Below are positions 2,371 to 26,340 of a DNA stretch of 36,784 nt, piece after piece. Origin of the DNA: a virus; the IMG/VR virus record IMGVR_UViG_3300025128_000137, positions 1-36,784 of that record, one strand, 5' to 3'. The notes beneath the pieces were generated by a model that was not told where the DNA came from, did no database searches, and was given only the letters and a program-made list of their open reading frames with translations. The position numbers were made by a program, and so were the translations under genes. How positions within the stretch are numbered: position 1 is the first letter of the stretch; each line of letters begins with the position of its first letter.

Positions 2371-3878
2371 CGCTCACCTTCTCTAAAGAACTCTAAGTCA
2401 TAACCGTATAGCTTGACGTCGTTAGTTCCTTCGTAAATGAAACGAATGTCGTAGACACGCGAGCTGGCTCTAAAGTCGGTCTTGTAATCTTGCCCAATCG
2501 TAAACGACGCAGAAGCCGTTGTTCTTGACGCATCGCTAAGTGCGTCTTTCGTATATAGCTGAACTTTTAGAGAGTCCCCGTCTGTGCCCTGAACCCACGG
2601 ATAGCACCTCAACACCCTCTTGTAACTGTTAATGTCTTTATCAAGAGGTACGTTCTTGCGCTCAAGGTAGACGTCCATGTTCGCACTGTCCGAAATGCCT
2701 TTGTATGTTTCGCTATTAGAAAAATAAACAATCTCTCGACGGTCGGCCCGCGTTAAAAACGAATACTCCTCTGCGGTGTTGCGTGTCGCATAGGTCGCTC
2801 TGGAGAAGGTATCCGGCAACCTGCCATTCGTGCCTCTTGCCATGGTTCCACCCAAGTCCCTTGGGTACACAGAGTTGCTTTGCCAATTCCAAACTAAAGC
2901 TGCATTAGGGGCAGAAGCCCCCTCCGCCGGGTAGCAAAAAATCATCTCCCTGTTTCGGTTGTCGCGCACCACAAAACTTCTGCGGTAATTATCTGCATCA
3001 ATTCGGTTAAACAGCCAGTCCCTAGTCTTTCGATCTACAACCGACTGCGCTTCGTTCCCGTCATGCACAACTACGTCGTTGTTGGTCACAACAAAGTGCA
3101 TGTTCTTGAAGGCCGACGCGCACTGCTCAGCAAGCATCCCAACCTCACCAAATAATTCTCTAAATGAAAATACATTGGAGCCACCAACATAATCCATTGC
3201 CCAAGTGTGTTGCTCTTTGTAAACAATGTTAGCGCCACGCAATGGCAAGCAATCAATAATCGGATCGCTTGAGTCCGCCAGCGTCACGCGGCCAGAATCA
3301 TTTGCCGGGTCTGTGTAGTCCCAGCTAGAAGGCAACCCCGTGAAGGCAGACGATGACCACCGCAGCATTAGGGGTTTTTTGTCCACACCCTCGGTCACCC
3401 TCAAAGCAATCAGAAAGTTCTTAAATGGTCTGATAACATCGCAAATAGGCGAGCCCGTAAGGATCGCAGTAGCAGTGGCAGGCGTATTGGGGTCCCATGA
3501 AAACGGCTGGAGCTTTCCTCCCCCCGTGTAAACTAAGTACCCATTGTAGGGGCCACCATTAAACCCAATGTCAACGCTAGCGCTAAAACTTGTGTGCGAA
3601 ATTTTTACATGGGCGGCTCCGGCGCTTCTTGCGTAATAAAGATTGTCAGTGTCCCCATAAACGTAGAACACATTAAGGTCGTCATCAGCCACCATATCCA
3701 AAGCGCAACTCCCAGTAACAGAAGTCGCACCAAACACATCATCCCAACCCTGCATCTTCTCTGCGCCACCGTCCCGATAGCGGACGTTCAGGGAATCAGT
3801 CATTACTCCGGGCGGAAGGTTCCACGCCGGAATATCTACGCTCACTCCAAAGTTTAAATCATTCGCTTGGTATCTCAT
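2367..3878 (-). CDS. Tail hub / DNA stabilisation protein, P22 gp10-like
   Basis: 503 residues from ATG 3878. That start forms an ATGA overlap with the stop of the upstream gene and is preferred over an in-frame GTG nine bases earlier. The sequence is beta-rich with repeated W-x-Y, G-G-x-N and L-x-Y-A units. The N-terminus has P-x-N-L-P-P-G-V-M-T-D-S-L-N-V-R-Y-R-D-G, the pattern of the P22 gp10-like packaged-DNA stabilisation family, which builds the tail hub below the portal. The surrounding head-tail and tail genes agree. The overall fold is inferred; no search was run. Confidence 0.65.
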   Translation of the reverse strand: MRYQANDLNFGVSVDIPAWNLPPGVMTDSLNVRYRDGGAEKMQGWDDVFGATSVTGSCALDMVADDDLNVFYVYGDTDNLYYARSAGAAHVKISHTSFSASVDIGFNGGPYNGYLVYTGGGKLQPFSWDPNTPATATAILTGSPICDVIRPFKNFLIALRVTEGVDKKPLMLRWSSSAFTGLPSSWDYTDPANDSGRVTLADSSDPIIDCLPLRGANIVYKEQHTWAMDYVGGSNVFSFRELFGEVGMLAEQCASAFKNMHFVVTNNDVVVHDGNEAQSVVDRKTRDWLFNRIDADNYRRSFVVRDNRNREMIFCYPAEGASAPNAALVWNWQSNSVYPRDLGGTMARGTNGRLPDTFSRATYATRNTAEEYSFLTRADRREIVYFSNSETYKGISDSANMDVYLERKNVPLDKDINSYKRVLRCYPWVQGTDGDSLKVQLYTKDALSDASRTTASASFTIGQDYKTDFRASSRVYDIRFIYEGTNDVKLYGYDLEFFREGER

Positions 3879-8286: not shown

Positions 8287-9017
8287 TATGCTGCTAACTC
8301 ATCTGCGATTTCATGAAAGCGCACCTTGTCGCCCCCCTTAACATGAACAAAGTATTTGTTGTTAATAGGCTCATCATCATGCGGCAGGTAATTCCACATC
8401 GAACAGTCCTCAACCTTGATCGACACGGGGCCCCACGCCATGGCGCGTTTAACCTCTCGTGGCGCCTGCTCATCCATAGAGCCACCAACCAATTCCCTTA
8501 GCGCCCATTGGTTGCCGTACCAGTCTTGCAAATGGCTGCCCATTTTTACCAAGCGTTCGCGCATCCAGATAAAAATTTCTTTCGCTTCCATCGTCGGGTT
8601 GGCTAATAAGACGCCATAGTTGTATGGCATTGGCCTTGCAACCCCTACTAACTTTTCCCCGTTTTCATCCAGATACACATGGTCCCGCTTGGTCACTATC
8701 AGGTCTTGGGTCAGCAGGGACAGATCGGCCTTTTTAACCGCCAGTACATCGGCGTCACAAAACAGAGTGAGCCGGTCAAAGCCCTTGTTGACAACGTAAT
8801 GCACTTGACAATGCACGTTGGCAATCATGTGCGGCATCATCTTTTGTATGGGGAGACAGATAACTTCGTCAACGCTGCCGCCTGCAAACACCGGCCATTC
8901 TTGGTCAGCGTAAATTATTATTTTAGCGCCGTCGTATACGCGCTTCATTGTTTCCGCACTACGAACTGCCAGCCCCGCGTATTCTTCCCCTCTCACCCAG
9001 TAAACAACATTTAACAT
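8286..9017 (-). CDS. Putative GT-A glycosyltransferase
   Basis: 243 residues from ATG 9017, chosen over an in-frame upstream GTG because it sits at the end of the methyltransferase gene. The N-terminus N-V-V-Y-W-V-R-G-E-E-Y and the motif T-L-F-C-D-A-D-V near residue 90 (D-x-D) fit a nucleotide-sugar glycosyltransferase of GT-A type. A conserved-looking block P-Y-N-Y-G-V-L-L-A-N-P lies at about 135-145. The C-terminal Y-F-V-H-V-K-G-G-D-K resembles the His ending of GT8-like enzymes. It belongs to a tightly overlapping four-gene cassette. Confidence 0.65.
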   Translation of the reverse strand: MLNVVYWVRGEEYAGLAVRSAETMKRVYDGAKIIIYADQEWPVFAGGSVDEVICLPIQKMMPHMIANVHCQVHYVVNKGFDRLTLFCDADVLAVKKADLSLLTQDLIVTKRDHVYLDENGEKLVGVARPMPYNYGVLLANPTMEAKEIFIWMRERLVKMGSHLQDWYGNQWALRELVGGSMDEQAPREVKRAMAWGPVSIKVEDCSMWNYLPHDDEPINNKYFVHVKGGDKVRFHEIADELAA

Positions 9018-21833: not shown

Positions 21834-22736
21834 ATGGCTAAGAAAAAGAAACAGAAGTTTGACCCAGATGTGGAAGTAACCAACGCCATCATTGAGGCAC
21901 TGAGTGCTGGCACCAACCCGTGGCAACGGCCTTGGGATGGCGGGCAGATCCTGTCCGGCCTGCCGTTCAATCCGACAACCGGCAAGACATACCAAGGCGG
22001 CAATATCATGCTGCTATTCATGGCGGCCCAAGCCAAGGGTTACAGCAGCAACCAATGGCTCGGTTACAGCCAAGGGAAAAAGATTGGCGGCCAAGTTCGC
22101 AAGGGTGAAAAATCAACCCTGATTATTCGCTCCAAGCCGATCTACGAAAAGGATCCAGTCACGAAAAAGGATGACCTGACCAAGATCAAATTCATGCGGA
22201 CATTCGGGGTTCGCGTTTTCAATGCGGACCAGTTCGACGGGCTACCGGATCACATCGCTAACCCGGAGCAGATTGAGCCCATGCCGATCCCGGACGTAGC
22301 AGTCTGGGCAGCTGAGGTACTAGGGGCCAACATTAAGCACGGCGGCAACAGTGCTTGTTACATCCCGTCGCAGGATGAGATCCATATGCCGGAATATGCC
22401 ATCTTCAAAACGCCAGAAGGGTACAACGGGACCTTGTTCCATGAAGTGATTCACTGGACAGGAGCCAAGGCAAGACTGGACCGACTGAAGGCTGGCGCAT
22501 TCGGGTCGGAGAATTACGCCAGAGAGGAATTGGTAGCCGAGATAGGCGCCGCCATGCTTTGCGCGGCACTGGGCCATCCCTACGTCGTTGAGCATCACGC
22601 CAGCTACGTTAAAAGCTGGCTGCGAGCCATCAAGGATGACCCCAAAGCGGTGCGGAAGGCCGCTCAGGACGCCGCTAAAGCGATGCAATACGTTTTGGAC
22701 CTAGCTGCTAGGGGTGAGGACAAACTCGCCGCCTAG
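21834..22736 (+). CDS. ardC: ArdC-like antirestriction protein
   Basis: 300 residues. The N-terminal half is the ArdC single-stranded-DNA-binding domain, with N-P-W-Q-R-P-W near 25, P-F-N-P-T-T-G-K-T-Y near 44, G-G-N-I-M-L-L, and W-L-G-Y near 71. The C-terminal half is the zincin metallopeptidase-like domain with H-E-V-I-H at 203-207 and a downstream E-E-L-V-A-E with Glu 236 as likely third ligand. ArdC proteins protect incoming DNA from host restriction. The gene is first in the early operon, with an AAGGA site before the start, which suits action right after DNA entry. Confidence 0.92.
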   Translation: MAKKKKQKFDPDVEVTNAIIEALSAGTNPWQRPWDGGQILSGLPFNPTTGKTYQGGNIMLLFMAAQAKGYSSNQWLGYSQGKKIGGQVRKGEKSTLIIRSKPIYEKDPVTKKDDLTKIKFMRTFGVRVFNADQFDGLPDHIANPEQIEPMPIPDVAVWAAEVLGANIKHGGNSACYIPSQDEIHMPEYAIFKTPEGYNGTLFHEVIHWTGAKARLDRLKAGAFGSENYAREELVAEIGAAMLCAALGHPYVVEHHASYVKSWLRAIKDDPKAVRKAAQDAAKAMQYVLDLAARGEDKLAA

Positions 22737-22756: not shown

Positions 22757-22785
22757 GGCCCCACGGATGGGGCCTTGCCTTTTAA
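22757..22785 (+). terminator. Weak terminator or attenuator after ardC
   Basis: GGCCCC (22757-22762) pairs with GGGGCC (22769-22774) around a six-base loop, followed by ttgcctttt. The T run is broken, so termination may be partial. It directly precedes the first hammerhead ribozyme. Confidence 0.5.
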
Positions 22786-22786
22786 A

Positions 22787-22835
22787 CTTGCCTGATGATC
22801 CGCTGGGGAGCGGTGAAAGCCGGAGGGCTAGCAAG
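22787..22835 (+). ncRNA. Hammerhead ribozyme 1 (type I)
   Basis: Stem I is CTTGC (22787-22791) with GCAAG (22831-22835). The core CTGATGA is at 22792-22798. Stem II is CCGCT with AGCGG around a GGGG loop, flanked by a U-U mismatch. GAAA is at 22815-22818, with its last A pairing with T 22829. Stem III is GCC with GGC around GGAG. The cleavage site is after A 22830 (CTA fits the N-U-H rule). All invariant core bases are present. Stem I is the open helix, which makes it type I. Cleavage would leave a 34-base leader before the next ATG. Confidence 0.87.
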
Positions 22836-22864
22836 ACCCAATTAAAAATTAACAAGGAAAAACT

Positions 22865-23101
22865 ATGCAAGTAAACGTTATTAAACATGAATCTTACGGG
22901 GACGCGCCCGCCGGTGCGGGCCAAATTCACCTCACCGGAGGTTTTACTTTTGGCTACATCTACTCTGAAAACGGAGAAGTGGAGGGATATTGCACGAAGC
23001 CAAACGGCCAGTTTATCAGTGAGCTGCACGGCTGGTATCGCACCACCGATCCAGAAGTGGCAGTACAAACCGCTGTCGATTGGCTCGCCAACAACATCTA
23101 A
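22865..23101 (+). CDS. Small early protein, unknown
   Basis: 78 residues with an AAGGA site. Beta-rich start (Q-V-N-V-I-K-H-E-S-Y, then G-G-F-T-F-G-Y-I-Y-S-E-N-G) and a helical end (V-A-V-Q-T-A-V-D-W-L-A-N-N-I). It is the first gene after hammerhead 1 and lies 34 bases upstream of the next gene. No family recognised. Confidence 0.7.
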   Translation: MQVNVIKHESYGDAPAGAGQIHLTGGFTFGYIYSENGEVEGYCTKPNGQFISELHGWYRTTDPEVAVQTAVDWLANNI

Positions 23102-23135
23102 GAAGAATGGCTTACATCATAAAAGGAAATACAAC

Positions 23136-23570
23136 ATGGGAAATAGAGCAGTAATAGCACAGAGAGTTGACGGAGTGCCACGCGAGTACAGCCCCGCGAT
23201 CTATCTACATTGGAACGGGGGCCGCGATAGCGTCGAAGCCTTTCTGAATGCCGCTAAGCATTTAGGCTTGAGGGGCGGCGATTACGGGATGGCAAGATTA
23301 ACCCAAATTATCGGGAACTTTTTCGGTGGTGGCATGAGCCTCGGGACTGGGACTTTATCTGGTCTCGATGCGGACAACTACGACAACGGCCTCTACTGGA
23401 TTGACGACCAATTCGAGATAGTTGACAGGGAGTTCGTCCGAAATCCTGAGCAGACTGGTTACGAACTGGTAGAGACCACAGAATATGTCTTATATCAGAA
23501 CAGACATGCTTTCAATGTTGAGCCTGAGATTATCGAAAGAGCCGAGAGGAGAGAGCTTGAAGCTGCCTGA
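23136..23570 (+). CDS. Early protein of unknown function (144 aa)
   Basis: The start is ATG 23136 with an AAAGGA site; the same frame is open further upstream but overlaps the previous gene. The product begins M-G-N-R-A-V-I-A-Q and contains Y-L-H-W-N-G-G-R-D-S-V-E-A-F-L-N-A-A, G-D-Y-G-M-A-R-L, and D-N-G-L-Y-W-I-D. The pattern is seen in small phage and plasmid proteins of unknown role. Its stop codon TGA at 23568-23570 is part of the catalytic core of hammerhead 2, so translation and ribozyme folding should compete. Confidence 0.8.
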   Translation: MGNRAVIAQRVDGVPREYSPAIYLHWNGGRDSVEAFLNAAKHLGLRGGDYGMARLTQIIGNFFGGGMSLGTGTLSGLDADNYDNGLYWIDDQFEIVDREFVRNPEQTGYELVETTEYVLYQNRHAFNVEPEIIERAERRELEAA

Positions 23571-23619
23571 TGATGGACGCGGGGGCGCGTCCGAAACCGG
23601 CAAGGATGCCGGTCGCAGT
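23562..23619 (+). ncRNA. Hammerhead ribozyme 2 (type I)
   Basis: Stem I is GCTGC (23562-23566) with GCAGT (23615-23619), including one G-U pair. The core CTGATGA is at 23567-23573. One extra T (23574) precedes stem II, GGACGC with GCGTCC around a G-rich loop. GAAA is at 23593-23596. Stem III is CCGGC with GCCGG around AAGGAT. T 23613 pairs with the last A of GAAA, and cleavage follows C 23614. Every core base is intact. The cut leaves a 35-base leader for the next gene, almost the same as for ribozyme 1. Confidence 0.87.
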
Positions 23620-23649
23620 ACCCAGTAAAAACCATAGGAGAAAAGTGAC

Positions 23650-23847
23650 ATGAGCAACTGGACACTAGAGAAAGACGACGAAGACCACTTCGTTCTTGCG
23701 AACAACAAGCCCCTCTCGTGCGGCTTCGTACATCGCCAGATTCAAGGGTTCATCGACGCAGACGTGAAGTATCAGTCCCGCAACCCTGCGCCGTACAAGT
23801 GCGGCAAATGCGGGGAGCTATTCTATCACCCGGAGGAAGTGGCATGA
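23650..23847 (+). CDS. Small zinc-ribbon-like protein
   Basis: 65 residues with a TAGGAGAAAA site. The C-terminus has Y-K-C-G-K-C-G-E-L-F-Y-H, a C-x-x-C half-site with a following His that could bind zinc. The N-terminus is charged and includes C-G-F-V-H. It ends in an ATGA overlap with the next gene. A nucleic-acid or regulatory role is possible. Confidence 0.7.
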   Translation: MSNWTLEKDDEDHFVLANNKPLSCGFVHRQIQGFIDADVKYQSRNPAPYKCGKCGELFYHPEEVA

Positions 23848-24116
23848 AATTACCTAAAGAACGTGACTTTGTTGTGTACAACGAAATCGTGCGCAGAAAC
23901 ATGACGATCAGGGGCGTTGCTCTTGCGTCCGCCGTTAGCCCTTCCACGATCCGACGCGCTGTGGATAGGGTCGCGGATTTTAATCGCCAGAGATTTGACA
24001 TCGAACTATCCGGCGCCGAGCTTCAAGACGTTTTGACATGTCTGCGCGGCAATGTCTGGTCACGCACTTCAGCTAATTTGGCTGACAGACTTGAAGAAAT
24101 AATTGGGGGACAATGA
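23844..24116 (+). CDS. Small helix-turn-helix protein
   Basis: 90 residues from ATG 23844, overlapping the previous stop as ATGA. Residues of about 15-45 form a helix-turn-helix (N-M-T-I-R-G-V-A-L-A-S-A-V-S-P-S-T-I-R-R-A). The rest is helical (L-S-G-A-E-L-Q-D-V-L-T-C-L, then L-A-D-R-L-E-E-I-I). Likely a DNA-binding regulator; the target is unknown, although the divergent control region is an obvious candidate. Confidence 0.7.
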   Translation: MKLPKERDFVVYNEIVRRNMTIRGVALASAVSPSTIRRAVDRVADFNRQRFDIELSGAELQDVLTCLRGNVWSRTSANLADRLEEIIGGQ

Positions 24117-24117
24117 C

Positions 24118-24309
24118 ATGAAGGAAATAAAAACATATATACAGGGGCGCGAGTACGACCTGAGCAACCGCGACGACCTAGCGCAGCTCGGCACACTGAT
24201 AAGCGACTGCCAAAACCGACACGCACCGAATGACCTCGCGTTAATGGCTAACTCGCTCTTAATAGTGATTATTGAACTGATAAACGCAATCGATCCCGCG
24301 CGCCCTTAA
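24118..24309 (+). CDS. Small early protein, unknown
   Basis: 63 residues from ATG 24118, chosen over an in-frame TTG because a GGGGGA site lies seven bases upstream. The N-terminus is charged (K-E-I-K-T-Y-I-Q-G-R-E-Y-D-L). The C-terminal third is hydrophobic (L-A-L-M-A-N-S-L-L-I-V-I-I-E-L-I) and may pack in a helical bundle or at a membrane. It ends six bases before hammerhead 3. Confidence 0.65.
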   Translation: MKEIKTYIQGREYDLSNRDDLAQLGTLISDCQNRHAPNDLALMANSLLIVIIELINAIDPARP

Positions 24310-24314
24310 ACCAA

Positions 24315-24379
24315 TGTTGAAACGCCGAGCAATCGGCGTCTGGGTCAGCTGGCTACTGACTCACTGATGAGACAAGCCA
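24315..24379 (+). ncRNA. Hammerhead ribozyme 3 (type II, with pseudoknot)
   Basis: Order: 3' strand of stem II TGTT (24315-24318), GAAA (24319-24322), stem III CGCCGA/TCGGCG with a GCAA tetraloop, T 24339 and C 24340 (cleavage after 24340). Stem I follows, TGGGTCAG/CTGACTCA with loop CTGGCTA, then CTGATGA (24364-24370) and the 5' strand of stem II GACA. Stem II is open, hence type II. Loop bases TGGCT (24350-24354) can pair with AGCCA (24375-24379), a five-pair pseudoknot. The next gene's GAGGAG site starts two bases later. Confidence 0.92.
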
Positions 24380-24395
24380 AGAGGAGAAAAACAAC

Positions 24396-25247
24396 ATGCA
24401 ATACAGCCTTAGCACACTAAAGCTGCGCAATGGTGGTTTTAAAATAGCGAGCTTAGAAATAATCGAGGGCGCTCTGAAATGCGGTTACACCGCCCATCTC
24501 GAAACCGAGCTTGGGGTGTGCGCCATACGCCCCTTTAACGTAACCGAGGAGGAAGTAAGAGAACGGATTGCCTTGGGGCCAAAAGCGAATAAGTGGCTCC
24601 ATCAGGATAATGCAGGACAGAACTGGTTGGTGGAGTTTTATACGCGAAATAGCATTCGGGAAATCAGTCTGGATGAAGTGCCGCATTACCGTGGTGATGA
24701 TTTAACCGATGCCAAGATGTTCGCCTTTTGCAATCTGAACCGCAGTGACGATGTGGAGGCCGGCCACGAACAGGCACTCAAGATCAACGAGCGCTGGACC
24801 GGCCCTTGCTACTATCCACAGACGCTTTCAGCCCACATCAAAGAGTACCGGCGAAAGTGCAAAGCCGCCCGCGATGCAGCGCAACGTGAGTGGAAATTGA
24901 AGGGTGAACGCAAGGCTCATGCAGCTGGAGTGGGTATGAGAATTTTCGCACAGGCCGACGGTGCTATGGGCAATGCTATTTACGATGCCACTTTTGAACA
25001 GTCTCACGACGAGTGGATGCCGCAAAGCGCCCTCACGGTGAGAGATCTGCGGGAGCGAGCAGCAGAGTATAAGACACTCAATGAAAAGGAAAATTTAGGC
25101 ATAACGCATCTGAGCTTGGATCACGAAGTTCGGGTCTACACTAGCTTTGGAGAGTGGATGAAAGACTTAGATGGTTCTGACCCCTTAGACCATATGTTGG
25201 AGCAGGATTTTGTCGAACACAACATTCCGCTGGCGGCATTCGATTAA
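24396..25247 (+). CDS. Early protein of unknown function (283 aa)
   Basis: 283 residues with a strong GAGGAG site. No family recognised. Mixed alpha/beta start (S-T-L-K-L-R-N-G-G-F-K-I-A-S-L-E-I). A long charged helix lies in the middle (I-K-E-Y-R-R-K-C-K-A-A-R-D-A-A-Q-R-E-W), and the end is acidic (D-L-D-G-S-D-P-L-D-H-M-L-E-Q-D). It is bracketed by the two type II hammerheads, so its RNA could be released as its own piece. It is the largest early gene after ardC. Confidence 0.75.
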   Translation: MQYSLSTLKLRNGGFKIASLEIIEGALKCGYTAHLETELGVCAIRPFNVTEEEVRERIALGPKANKWLHQDNAGQNWLVEFYTRNSIREISLDEVPHYRGDDLTDAKMFAFCNLNRSDDVEAGHEQALKINERWTGPCYYPQTLSAHIKEYRRKCKAARDAAQREWKLKGERKAHAAGVGMRIFAQADGAMGNAIYDATFEQSHDEWMPQSALTVRDLRERAAEYKTLNEKENLGITHLSLDHEVRVYTSFGEWMKDLDGSDPLDHMLEQDFVEHNIPLAAFD

Positions 25248-25258
25248 CAGCAGGAGCA

Positions 25259-25335
25259 GTCGAAACACGGACATGGCCTAGGCTTTGTCCGTTTCTGACC
25301 TGAGCTGGCTACTCGGTCACTGATGAGACAAGCCA
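25259..25335 (+). ncRNA. Hammerhead ribozyme 4 (type II, with pseudoknot)
   Basis: Same plan as ribozyme 3. GTC (25259-25261) pairs with GAC (25327-25329) as stem II. GAAA is at 25262-25265. Stem III is ACGGACA/TGTCCGT with a longer loop and one C-U mismatch. T 25294 and C 25295 are the cleavage site. Stem I is TGACC-(T)-GAG with CTCGGTCA, with one bulged T. The loop is again CTGGCTA, and CTGATGA is at 25320-25326. TGGCT (25306-25310) pairs with AGCCA (25331-25335). The helices differ from ribozyme 3 but stay paired, which is covariation support. The leader left after cutting is about 107 bases. Confidence 0.9.
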
Positions 25336-25402
25336 AGTGTCCACCCGAGATGACAGGGATATGGACAGCTGATACAATTGCAAAAACAAAGGGAGAAAAC
25401 CA

Positions 25403-25648
25403 ATGACAGAGTACAAATTTAAGCAGGGTGACAAGGTGACCTATCGCGGCGTCTGGGGCACAGCGCCAGAGTCGGACCCGGTTGAGATCACAAGCACTGG
25501 GACAAAGAACGGCGAGCGAGTCTATGGGCTCTCCGATAATCACTGGTGCTACGAGAATCAGATTTGCGGAAAATACACGGACCCGAAAGAGGCCGCACAA
25601 TTTCGCTGGCAGGCTCACGCCGACCGCGACGAACTTGACTTGCACTAG
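25403..25648 (+). CDS. Small SH3/KOW-like early protein
   Basis: 81 residues with a GGGAGAAAA site. The start F-K-Q-G-D-K-V-T-Y-R-G-V-W-G and later strand-like segments resemble small SH3- or KOW-like beta-barrels. It includes H-W-C-Y-E-N-Q-I-C and a short charged end. Such proteins are common in phages but have no fixed function. Confidence 0.65.
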   Translation: MTEYKFKQGDKVTYRGVWGTAPESDPVEITSTGTKNGERVYGLSDNHWCYENQICGKYTDPKEAAQFRWQAHADRDELDLH

Positions 25649-25994: not shown

Positions 25995-26267
25995 GTGAGA
26001 CACGCAGCCAGAAACGATGCAAACCAGCCTGAGATTGTCGCTGCCCTGCGCGAGCGGGGCGCGACGGTCTGGGTCATCGGTTTGCCGGTTGACCTTCTGG
26101 TCGGCTACAAGGGCGTTAATACGCTGATGGAAATTAAACCATCACCAAGAGAGCAGCTGACCAAGCTGCAAACAAAATTTTTTGACGACTGGCGCGGCCA
26201 AGTGGCGCGAGTTGAGACTGTCGAGCAAGCGTTCGAGGTCGCAGGGATTAATAAGGGGCTCGCCTAG
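25995..26267 (+). CDS. VRR-NUC-like nuclease
   Basis: 90 residues from GTG 25995. Helix Q-P-E-I-V-A-A-L-R-E-R-G-A, then G-L-P-V-D-L-L-V-G-Y and N-T-L-M-E-I-K with the D and E-x-K of a PD-(D/E)xK nuclease, then L-T-K-L-Q-T-K-F-F-D-D-W-R-G. This is the pattern of small phage VRR-NUC proteins, possibly junction-resolving or repair nucleases. The usual P-D is here P-V-D with one inserted residue, so activity is not certain. Confidence 0.8.
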   Translation: MRHAARNDANQPEIVAALRERGATVWVIGLPVDLLVGYKGVNTLMEIKPSPREQLTKLQTKFFDDWRGQVARVETVEQAFEVAGINKGLA

Positions 26268-26318
26268 GCGTATGGACCGAACGGACTGCTTCCCCCGCAG
26301 TTCTGGCGAGCTTTTTTT
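26258..26318 (+). terminator. Probable terminator after the VRR-NUC-like gene
   Basis: GCTCGCC (26258-26264) can pair with GGCGAGC (26305-26311), which is followed by seven T. Inside sits a second hairpin, GGACTGC with GCAGTTC. The outer arm includes the stop codon of the nuclease gene, so translating ribosomes may affect termination. Confidence 0.6.
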
Positions 26319-26340
26319 AAGGGGGCAGGAGAAAACACAA

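Follow-up and report, generated by a model that had tools for sequence, protein, structure and literature searches.

The question raised by the early genes of the viral record IMGVR_UViG_3300025128_000137 was why their longer spacers should each hold a hammerhead ribozyme, and what these elements would do to the RNA of the operon. The window analysed was this single viral record over its full 36,784 bases. Its minus strand carries late genes (terminase, portal and major head protein), while the plus strand carries a run with an ArdC-like antirestriction gene, small genes without assigned function, an Erf-like annealing protein and a RecE-like exonuclease, and it is because of these gene functions that the run is taken to be early. 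The four elements, named HH1 to HH4, are best read from sequence and comparative analysis as self-cleaving hammerhead spacers that would cut the early RNA into messages of one to three genes, with a probability of about 0.75.

Each of the four spacers of the early run between 22787 and 25337 contained one hammerhead, all of them intergenic and on the sense strand (Table 1). HH1 and HH2 were of type I, with stem I open, and HH3 and HH4 were of type II, with stem II open. The core segments CTGATGA and GAAA and the A15.1-U16.1 pair were present in all four, and the cleavable base was A, C, C and C at 22830, 23614, 24340 and 25295, respectively. The initial annotation had placed four complete hammerheads here, on the sense strand and between genes; its core, helices, A-U pair and cleavable bases were all recovered, and its cut sites were exact to the base. 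Its wording that every longer spacer holds a ribozyme was true inside 22787-25335, where the ribozyme-free spacers were 34 nucleotides (nt), 1 nt and a 4-nt overlap.

In HH1, stem I was formed by CTTGC (22787-22791) and GCAAG (22831-22835), with the core CTGATGA at 22792-22798 and GAAA at 22815-22818. Its stem II (CCGCT/AGCGG) had a U10.1-U11.1 mismatch and a GGGG loop (22805-22808), and stem III was GCC/GGC. The predicted cut was after A22830, an ACCC tail (22836-22839) could pair with the GGGG loop, and the minimum free energy (MFE) fold reproduced the same three-way junction. In HH2, stem I was GCTGC (23562-23566) with GCAGT (23615-23619), the core lay at 23567-23573 and contained the TGA (23568-23570) that ends the upstream gene, and GAAA lay at 23593-23596. 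An extra U (23574) followed A9, stem II was GGACGCG/CGCGTCC with a GGGG loop (23582-23585), stem III was CCGGCA/TGCCGG, and the predicted cut after C23614 was followed by an ACCC tail at 23620-23623. With the paired bases present in both, a GGGG/ACCC loop-tail pseudoknot is predicted for HH1 and HH2.

The type II copies shared a UGGCU/AGCCA pseudoknot. HH3 had stem II TGTT/GACA, GAAA at 24319-24322, stem III CGCCGA/TCGGCG, a predicted cut after C24340, stem I TGGGTCAG/CTGACTCA (24341-24363) and the core at 24364-24370, and its loop CTGGCTA (24349-24355) paired with AGCCA (24375-24379). HH4 had stem II GTC/GAC, GAAA at 25262-25265, stem III ACGGACA/TGTCCGT following a C-U mismatch, a predicted cut after C25295, stem I TGACCTGAG/CTCGGTCA, in which a U is bulged out, and the core at 25320-25326, and its loop CTGGCTA (25305-25311) paired with AGCCA (25331-25335).

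The distance from the upstream stop codon to the ribozyme was about 50 nt for HH1 and 5 and 10 nt for HH3 and HH4, while HH2 overlapped the stop (UGA within the CUGAUGA core). The leader from predicted cut to start codon was 34, 35, 55 and 107 nt for HH1, HH2, HH3 and HH4, respectively. Two genes, then three, then one are set apart by the ribozymes, and the remainder of the run follows. Since genes inside the segments were closely packed (ribozyme-free junctions of -4, +1 and +34 nt) and the gaps were filled by ribozymes, the ribozymes stand in for intercistronic spacers.

Table 1. Coordinates of the hammerhead ribozymes and of the early genes around them (R1 and R2, covariance models of type II and type I; aa, amino acids; ORF, open reading frame).
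Feature	Position	Strand	Evidence or remark
ArdC-like antirestriction gene	21834..22736	+	5' of HH1; Pfam ArdcN 3e-31, MPTase-PolyVal 1.4e-42; PHROG 7245 anti-restriction 5e-77
HH1, type I	22787..22839	+	sequence, MFE fold, descriptor, model R2
Small gene, 78 aa, after HH1	22865..23101	+	ORF list; predicted leader from cut 34 nt
144-aa gene between HH1 and HH2	23136..23570	+	family common in viral contigs
HH2, type I	23562..23623	+	sequence, MFE fold (z -3.23), descriptor, model R2
Three small, tightly packed genes between HH2 and HH3	23650-23847, 23844-24116, 24118-24309	+	ORF list, sequence
HH3, type II with pseudoknot	24315..24381	+	model R1 (built from other phages), descriptor
283-aa gene between HH3 and HH4	24396..25247	+	ORF list
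HH4, type II with pseudoknot	25258..25337	+	model R1, MFE fold (z -2.56)
81-aa gene 3' of HH4	25403..25648	+	ORF list; leader from cut 107 nt

A strict descriptor (core, GAAA, A-U pair, H17 and three uninterrupted helices) matched HH1, HH2 and HH3 in the window. Applied to 220.7 Mb of window DNA after dinucleotide shuffling, the same descriptor had no type I match, six of type II and two of type III, and 478.5 kb of other real DNA gave none. HH4 failed it because of the bulged U in stem I and the C-U mismatch in stem III, and was caught by a covariance model. A relaxed descriptor gave false positives in AT-rich coding DNA (40 in 6.5 Mb of shuffled sequence) and was used only with inspection.

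The signature of HH3 and HH4 (GGCTA, 6-16 nt, CTGATGAGACAAGCC) was present in 54 viral contigs, nearly all with the full type II structure, and covariance model R1 was built from five signature contigs, none of them from the window. For type I, patterns combining CTGATGAT with a GGGG loop led to L087, L096 (Paenibacillus), L107 (Clostridiales genome), L115 and L117, and model R2 was built from L115 (N-padded to equal length) and L117, again with no window sequence. Small gap-free sets were used for the models as MAFFT alignments misplaced stem III in the type I and the full type II sets. Model R1 scored 75.6 bits for HH3 (E 3.7e-20) and 51.1 bits for HH4 (E 6e-13), and R2 scored 55.2 bits for HH2 (E 3e-13) and 39.2 bits for HH1 (E 8.6e-9), so that all four elements had covariance support from sequences outside the window. 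Another type I pattern, with GCCTGATGAT, was rejected after 22 chance matches and one real one, and BLAST searches for the ribozymes in annotated phages produced chance matches only.

The fold was conserved across phages. Among 86 distinct type II sequences, 98.5% of the paired positions paired, in an alignment that was fitted to the model and leans towards it, and double-sided changes were found in 461 cells against 143 in shuffles. When the partners were slid by one column, pairing fell to 31-41%. The type II loop I-tail pseudoknot had at least 4 complementary bases in 38 of the 41 matches that lay outside the search pattern, while in 1000 tail swaps this number averaged 19.4 of 41 and never exceeded 28. 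This pseudoknot covaries across phages, with varied pairs such as UGGGUU/AACCCA, UGAGA/UCUCA and UGCGC/GCGCA. For type I, loop II GGGG and an ACCC after a 5-bp stem I were found in L087, L096, L107, L115 and L117 as in HH1 and HH2, and the ACCC tail was not part of the search pattern. A varied type I pair (GAGG/ACCU) was present in L137, in a group with few independent changes. Separately, contig L171 carried four AT-rich type II hammerheads (at 3489, 3799, 4807 and 5775, plus strand) with CUGAAGA or CUGAUGA cores and a different pseudoknot (loop UUGAAC, tail GUUCA).

Placement was measured on 90 distinct type II matches from diverse phage contigs, three of which were probably truncated false matches. 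The median distance from the ribozyme back to the closest stop codon upstream was 0 nt (n=90), and a ribosome-binding site (RBS) with a start codon was found at most 40 nt 3' of it in 86% (n=90), compared with 13% for random positions and 2% for antisense. Placement between cistrons holds for the type II family in general, the window agrees with it, and processing of polycistronic early RNA is therefore the best reading of the four elements. The initial annotation had proposed such cutting as a general system; that part stands through the placement of the family, while its novelty does not, the role having been proposed in 2011.

Other phages carried larger arrays, and in every contig with several R1 matches all matches were on one strand. 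The densest array seen was that of G016 (L126, contig IMGVR_UViG_3300033112_000310, 874-13934, plus strand). It had 18 type II R1 matches over about 13 kb and one more from Rfam at 8726-8807, and parts of it had a ribozyme for every gene, although gene counts in such arrays are approximate as the simple gene caller misassigns some frames. G009 had 11 type II R1 matches, L055 nine in the stretch examined and G018 six. Ribozyme classes were mixed in L052 (3089-6813, plus strand), where 3.7 kb of one strand held hammerheads of type I (four) and type II (one) together with three pistol ribozymes, and in L200 (700-1723, plus strand), where a type-P5 twister and a type II hammerhead lay about 0.9 kb apart on the same strand. 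The gene at 23136-23570 had 184 related stretches in viral contigs; its relative in L137 also lay between two type I hammerheads, and in L167-L170 one hammerhead was found about 82 nt upstream of the relative.

The ribozyme architecture, the stop-ribozyme-RBS placement and the co-orientation can be read from the nucleotide sequence itself. Cleavage in the window phage would be expected given the intact cores and the cleavage published for related clusters. During synthesis of the polycistronic RNA, every ribozyme would fold and cut itself once. The products would be a two-gene RNA (22831-23614, about 784 nt), a three-gene RNA (23615-24340, about 726 nt), a one-gene RNA (24341-25295, about 955 nt) and a downstream remainder. 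Stem III, as a hairpin carrying a 2',3'-cyclic phosphate, would form the end of the upstream pieces, and the downstream pieces would begin with a 5'-OH, which after HH3 and HH4 would be capped by the stem I hairpin and pseudoknot. This capped end would directly precede the RBS in HH3 and lie about 65 nt ahead of the start in HH4. A 3' hairpin with cyclic phosphate and a hairpin at the 5'-OH should slow 3' exonucleases and 5'-end-dependent decay. The likely effect on stability and expression would be defined message ends and independent lifetimes, in the manner of RiboJ.

Several observations weigh against this role. Rfam 15 gave no hammerhead match in the window at the gathering score or at E<=10, and RF02276 and RF00163 run alone on the window matched none of the four. 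Literally, this is one of the outcomes that the initial annotation had named as refuting it, but Rfam also misses or under-scores the sister motifs in other contigs. Since the Rfam search does detect hammerheads in L042, L044, L015, L057 and L126, and RF02276 matches other phages, the miss in the window is specific and the curated models are too narrow. HH1 to HH4 fall below the curators' gathering threshold of RF02276 and RF00163, a detection cut-off and not a biochemical feature, and are therefore not filed under these families. The Rfam result is also what would be expected if the elements were chance hairpins resembling hammerheads; that idea has a practically negligible probability and is refuted at the sequence level by the shuffled DNA (zero type I and eight other matches in 220.7 Mb) and the independent covariance models (E 9e-9 to 4e-20). 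Further points against cutting are that the pseudoknot-free MFE folds of HH3 and HH4 prefer competing helices, and that HH1, with a short stem III and a mismatched first stem II pair, may cleave slowly. Most of the 80 relatives of gene 23136-23570 examined were without a nearby hammerhead, and near relatives of the window phage had none in the DNA examined; therefore the elements are not essential and the trait is patchy. The same patchiness, with near-identical copies within one phage that suggest recent duplication, would suit relics that have lost activity, or sequences that propagate themselves and bring the phage no benefit. Relics would drift, however, whereas the cores are intact in all four, compensatory change keeps stems and pseudoknots across phages, and the stop-RBS position is tightly kept, which makes this a very unlikely explanation.

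Two other explanations accept cleavage and differ on its use. In a regulated switch, cleavage would open or hide the downstream RBS, or ribosomes at the upstream stop or downstream start would govern ribozyme folding and couple translation to cutting. The ribozymes do stand directly between stop codon and RBS, and in HH2, where the core holds the upstream stop, a ribosome would be expected to compete with the ribozyme for these bases. Against this, no ligand-like domain was seen, and predicted RBS accessibility differed between precursor and product folds by a median of 0.0006 (86 cases, of which 12 rose and 3 fell by more than 0.1; pseudoknots were ignored). General unmasking of the RBS by cleavage was not supported by this folding test; as accessibility did not change, any control would act through RNA stability or translation coupling, and a switch is judged unlikely. 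The alternative of circular or spliced RNAs, for which the odds are slimmer, holds that a hybrid ribozyme, made of the 5' half of HH4 and the 3' half of HH3, or else the host RtcB, closes the 955-nt segment from HH3 to HH4 by ligation, so that one gene would sit on a circular message. The 5'-OH and cyclic-phosphate ends are RtcB substrates, GTC in stem II of HH4 is compatible with GAC in HH3, and nearly all type II copies have GTC/GAC or GCC/GGC in stem II, mostly one form per contig. This common sequence may come from duplication or pseudoknot geometry alone, and stem I cannot be exchanged between the two type I elements of the window, where GCUGC and GCAAG form 3 pairs. Spliced or circular cluster products were sought by Perreault et al., and none were seen (PMC3088659). 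It is similarly improbable that dense phage arrays with interchangeable type II halves cut and rejoin, giving circular or recombined single-gene messages during infection. Cutting of the early RNA into separate messages remains the preferred reading.

The initial annotation had described hammerheads as known in single copies, which the literature contradicts. According to the text of Perreault et al. (2011; PMC3088659), prophage hammerhead clusters occur "on many occasions" and a role in operon processing was already proposed; three tandem sets cleave in vitro, the Agrobacterium tumefaciens set also in E. coli; a triple set flanks ardA; and type II hammerheads with a pseudoknot are reported. 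As in the window, the co-transcribed hammerheads of the clusters in Clostridium scindens, Azorhizobium caulinodans and A. tumefaciens are of mixed types and flank single genes or short blocks, with an antirestriction gene nearby in both cases (ardA there, ArdC-like here; PMC3088659). The text of that paper also gives the U10.1-U11.1 mismatch as a natural variant with activity, a precedent for HH1. Against the text of that paper, the present data differ in that a single viral record carries four ribozymes and another contig as many as 18-19. A 2017 review noted that hammerheads often occur near one another, that they flank small unknown ORFs and that their link to phages is persistent; it called the role of prokaryotic and phage hammerheads an open question (PMC6155905).

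HH3 and HH4 share the core, the open stem II, the closed stems I and III and the loop I-tail pseudoknot of the type II hammerhead of RF02276, for which a pseudoknot crystal structure exists (PMC11300833). They are nevertheless not matched by RF02276, and HH4 differs in its stem I bulge and extended stem III. HH1 and HH2 have the topology of the viroid type I hammerhead, and HH2 has one extra base after A9 as in the viroid. That base is a U, the analogue of a tested viroid variant in which A10 to U raised the rate 3-4 fold (PMC3705267). The tertiary contact of HH1 and HH2 would be the GGGG-ACCC pseudoknot and not a loop-loop contact, and RF00163 misses the whole subgroup. The engineered insulator RiboJ, a satellite-virus hammerhead, raised transcript about two-fold in E. 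coli (PMC6206723); like the elements here it is cut in the leader and leaves a hairpin beside the RBS, but it is used in single copy at promoters and not between genes.

The 78-aa gene and the 144-aa protein of 23136-23570 had no Pfam or PHROG family match, and the latter is a candidate new phage family. Neither a family nor a phage relative was found for the 283-aa gene in family and protein searches, and nucleotide and protein searches with the operon returned no annotated relative apart from weak matches of gene 23136-23570. Between the ArdC-like gene and HH1, a terminator-like hairpin was seen by eye at 22757-22783 on the plus strand (GGCCCC-ACGGAT-GGGGCC followed by TTGCCTTTT); it was absent from the terminator-scan list, and if it is real, HH1 sits just beyond a terminator. 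Downstream, the spacer at 26257-26325 (plus strand) scored 35.0 bits for the int-alpA RNA motif RF02996, just short of the threshold of 35.8 (E 0.00097), and ends in a T-run, and is possibly a further structured element of the hammerhead operon.

RF00163 and RF02276 miss the type I subgroup with the U insert and several type II copies, and both could be extended with the sequences found here. With that subgroup and all four ribozymes of the window missed, Rfam-based counts of phage ribozymes are too low. The window cluster is a well-formed new example of the prophage hammerhead clusters already described. What goes beyond the open literature found, which includes the 2011 paper without its figures and supplements, is the placement rule with its numbers, the size of the arrays and the type I subgroup that Rfam does not see. 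The four-ribozyme window is compact enough for testing in a single construct. In unrelated phages the ribozymes fill nearly all of the gap from stop codon to RBS, and arrays reach 18 or more, which argues that phages use ribozymes as routine intercistronic spacers.

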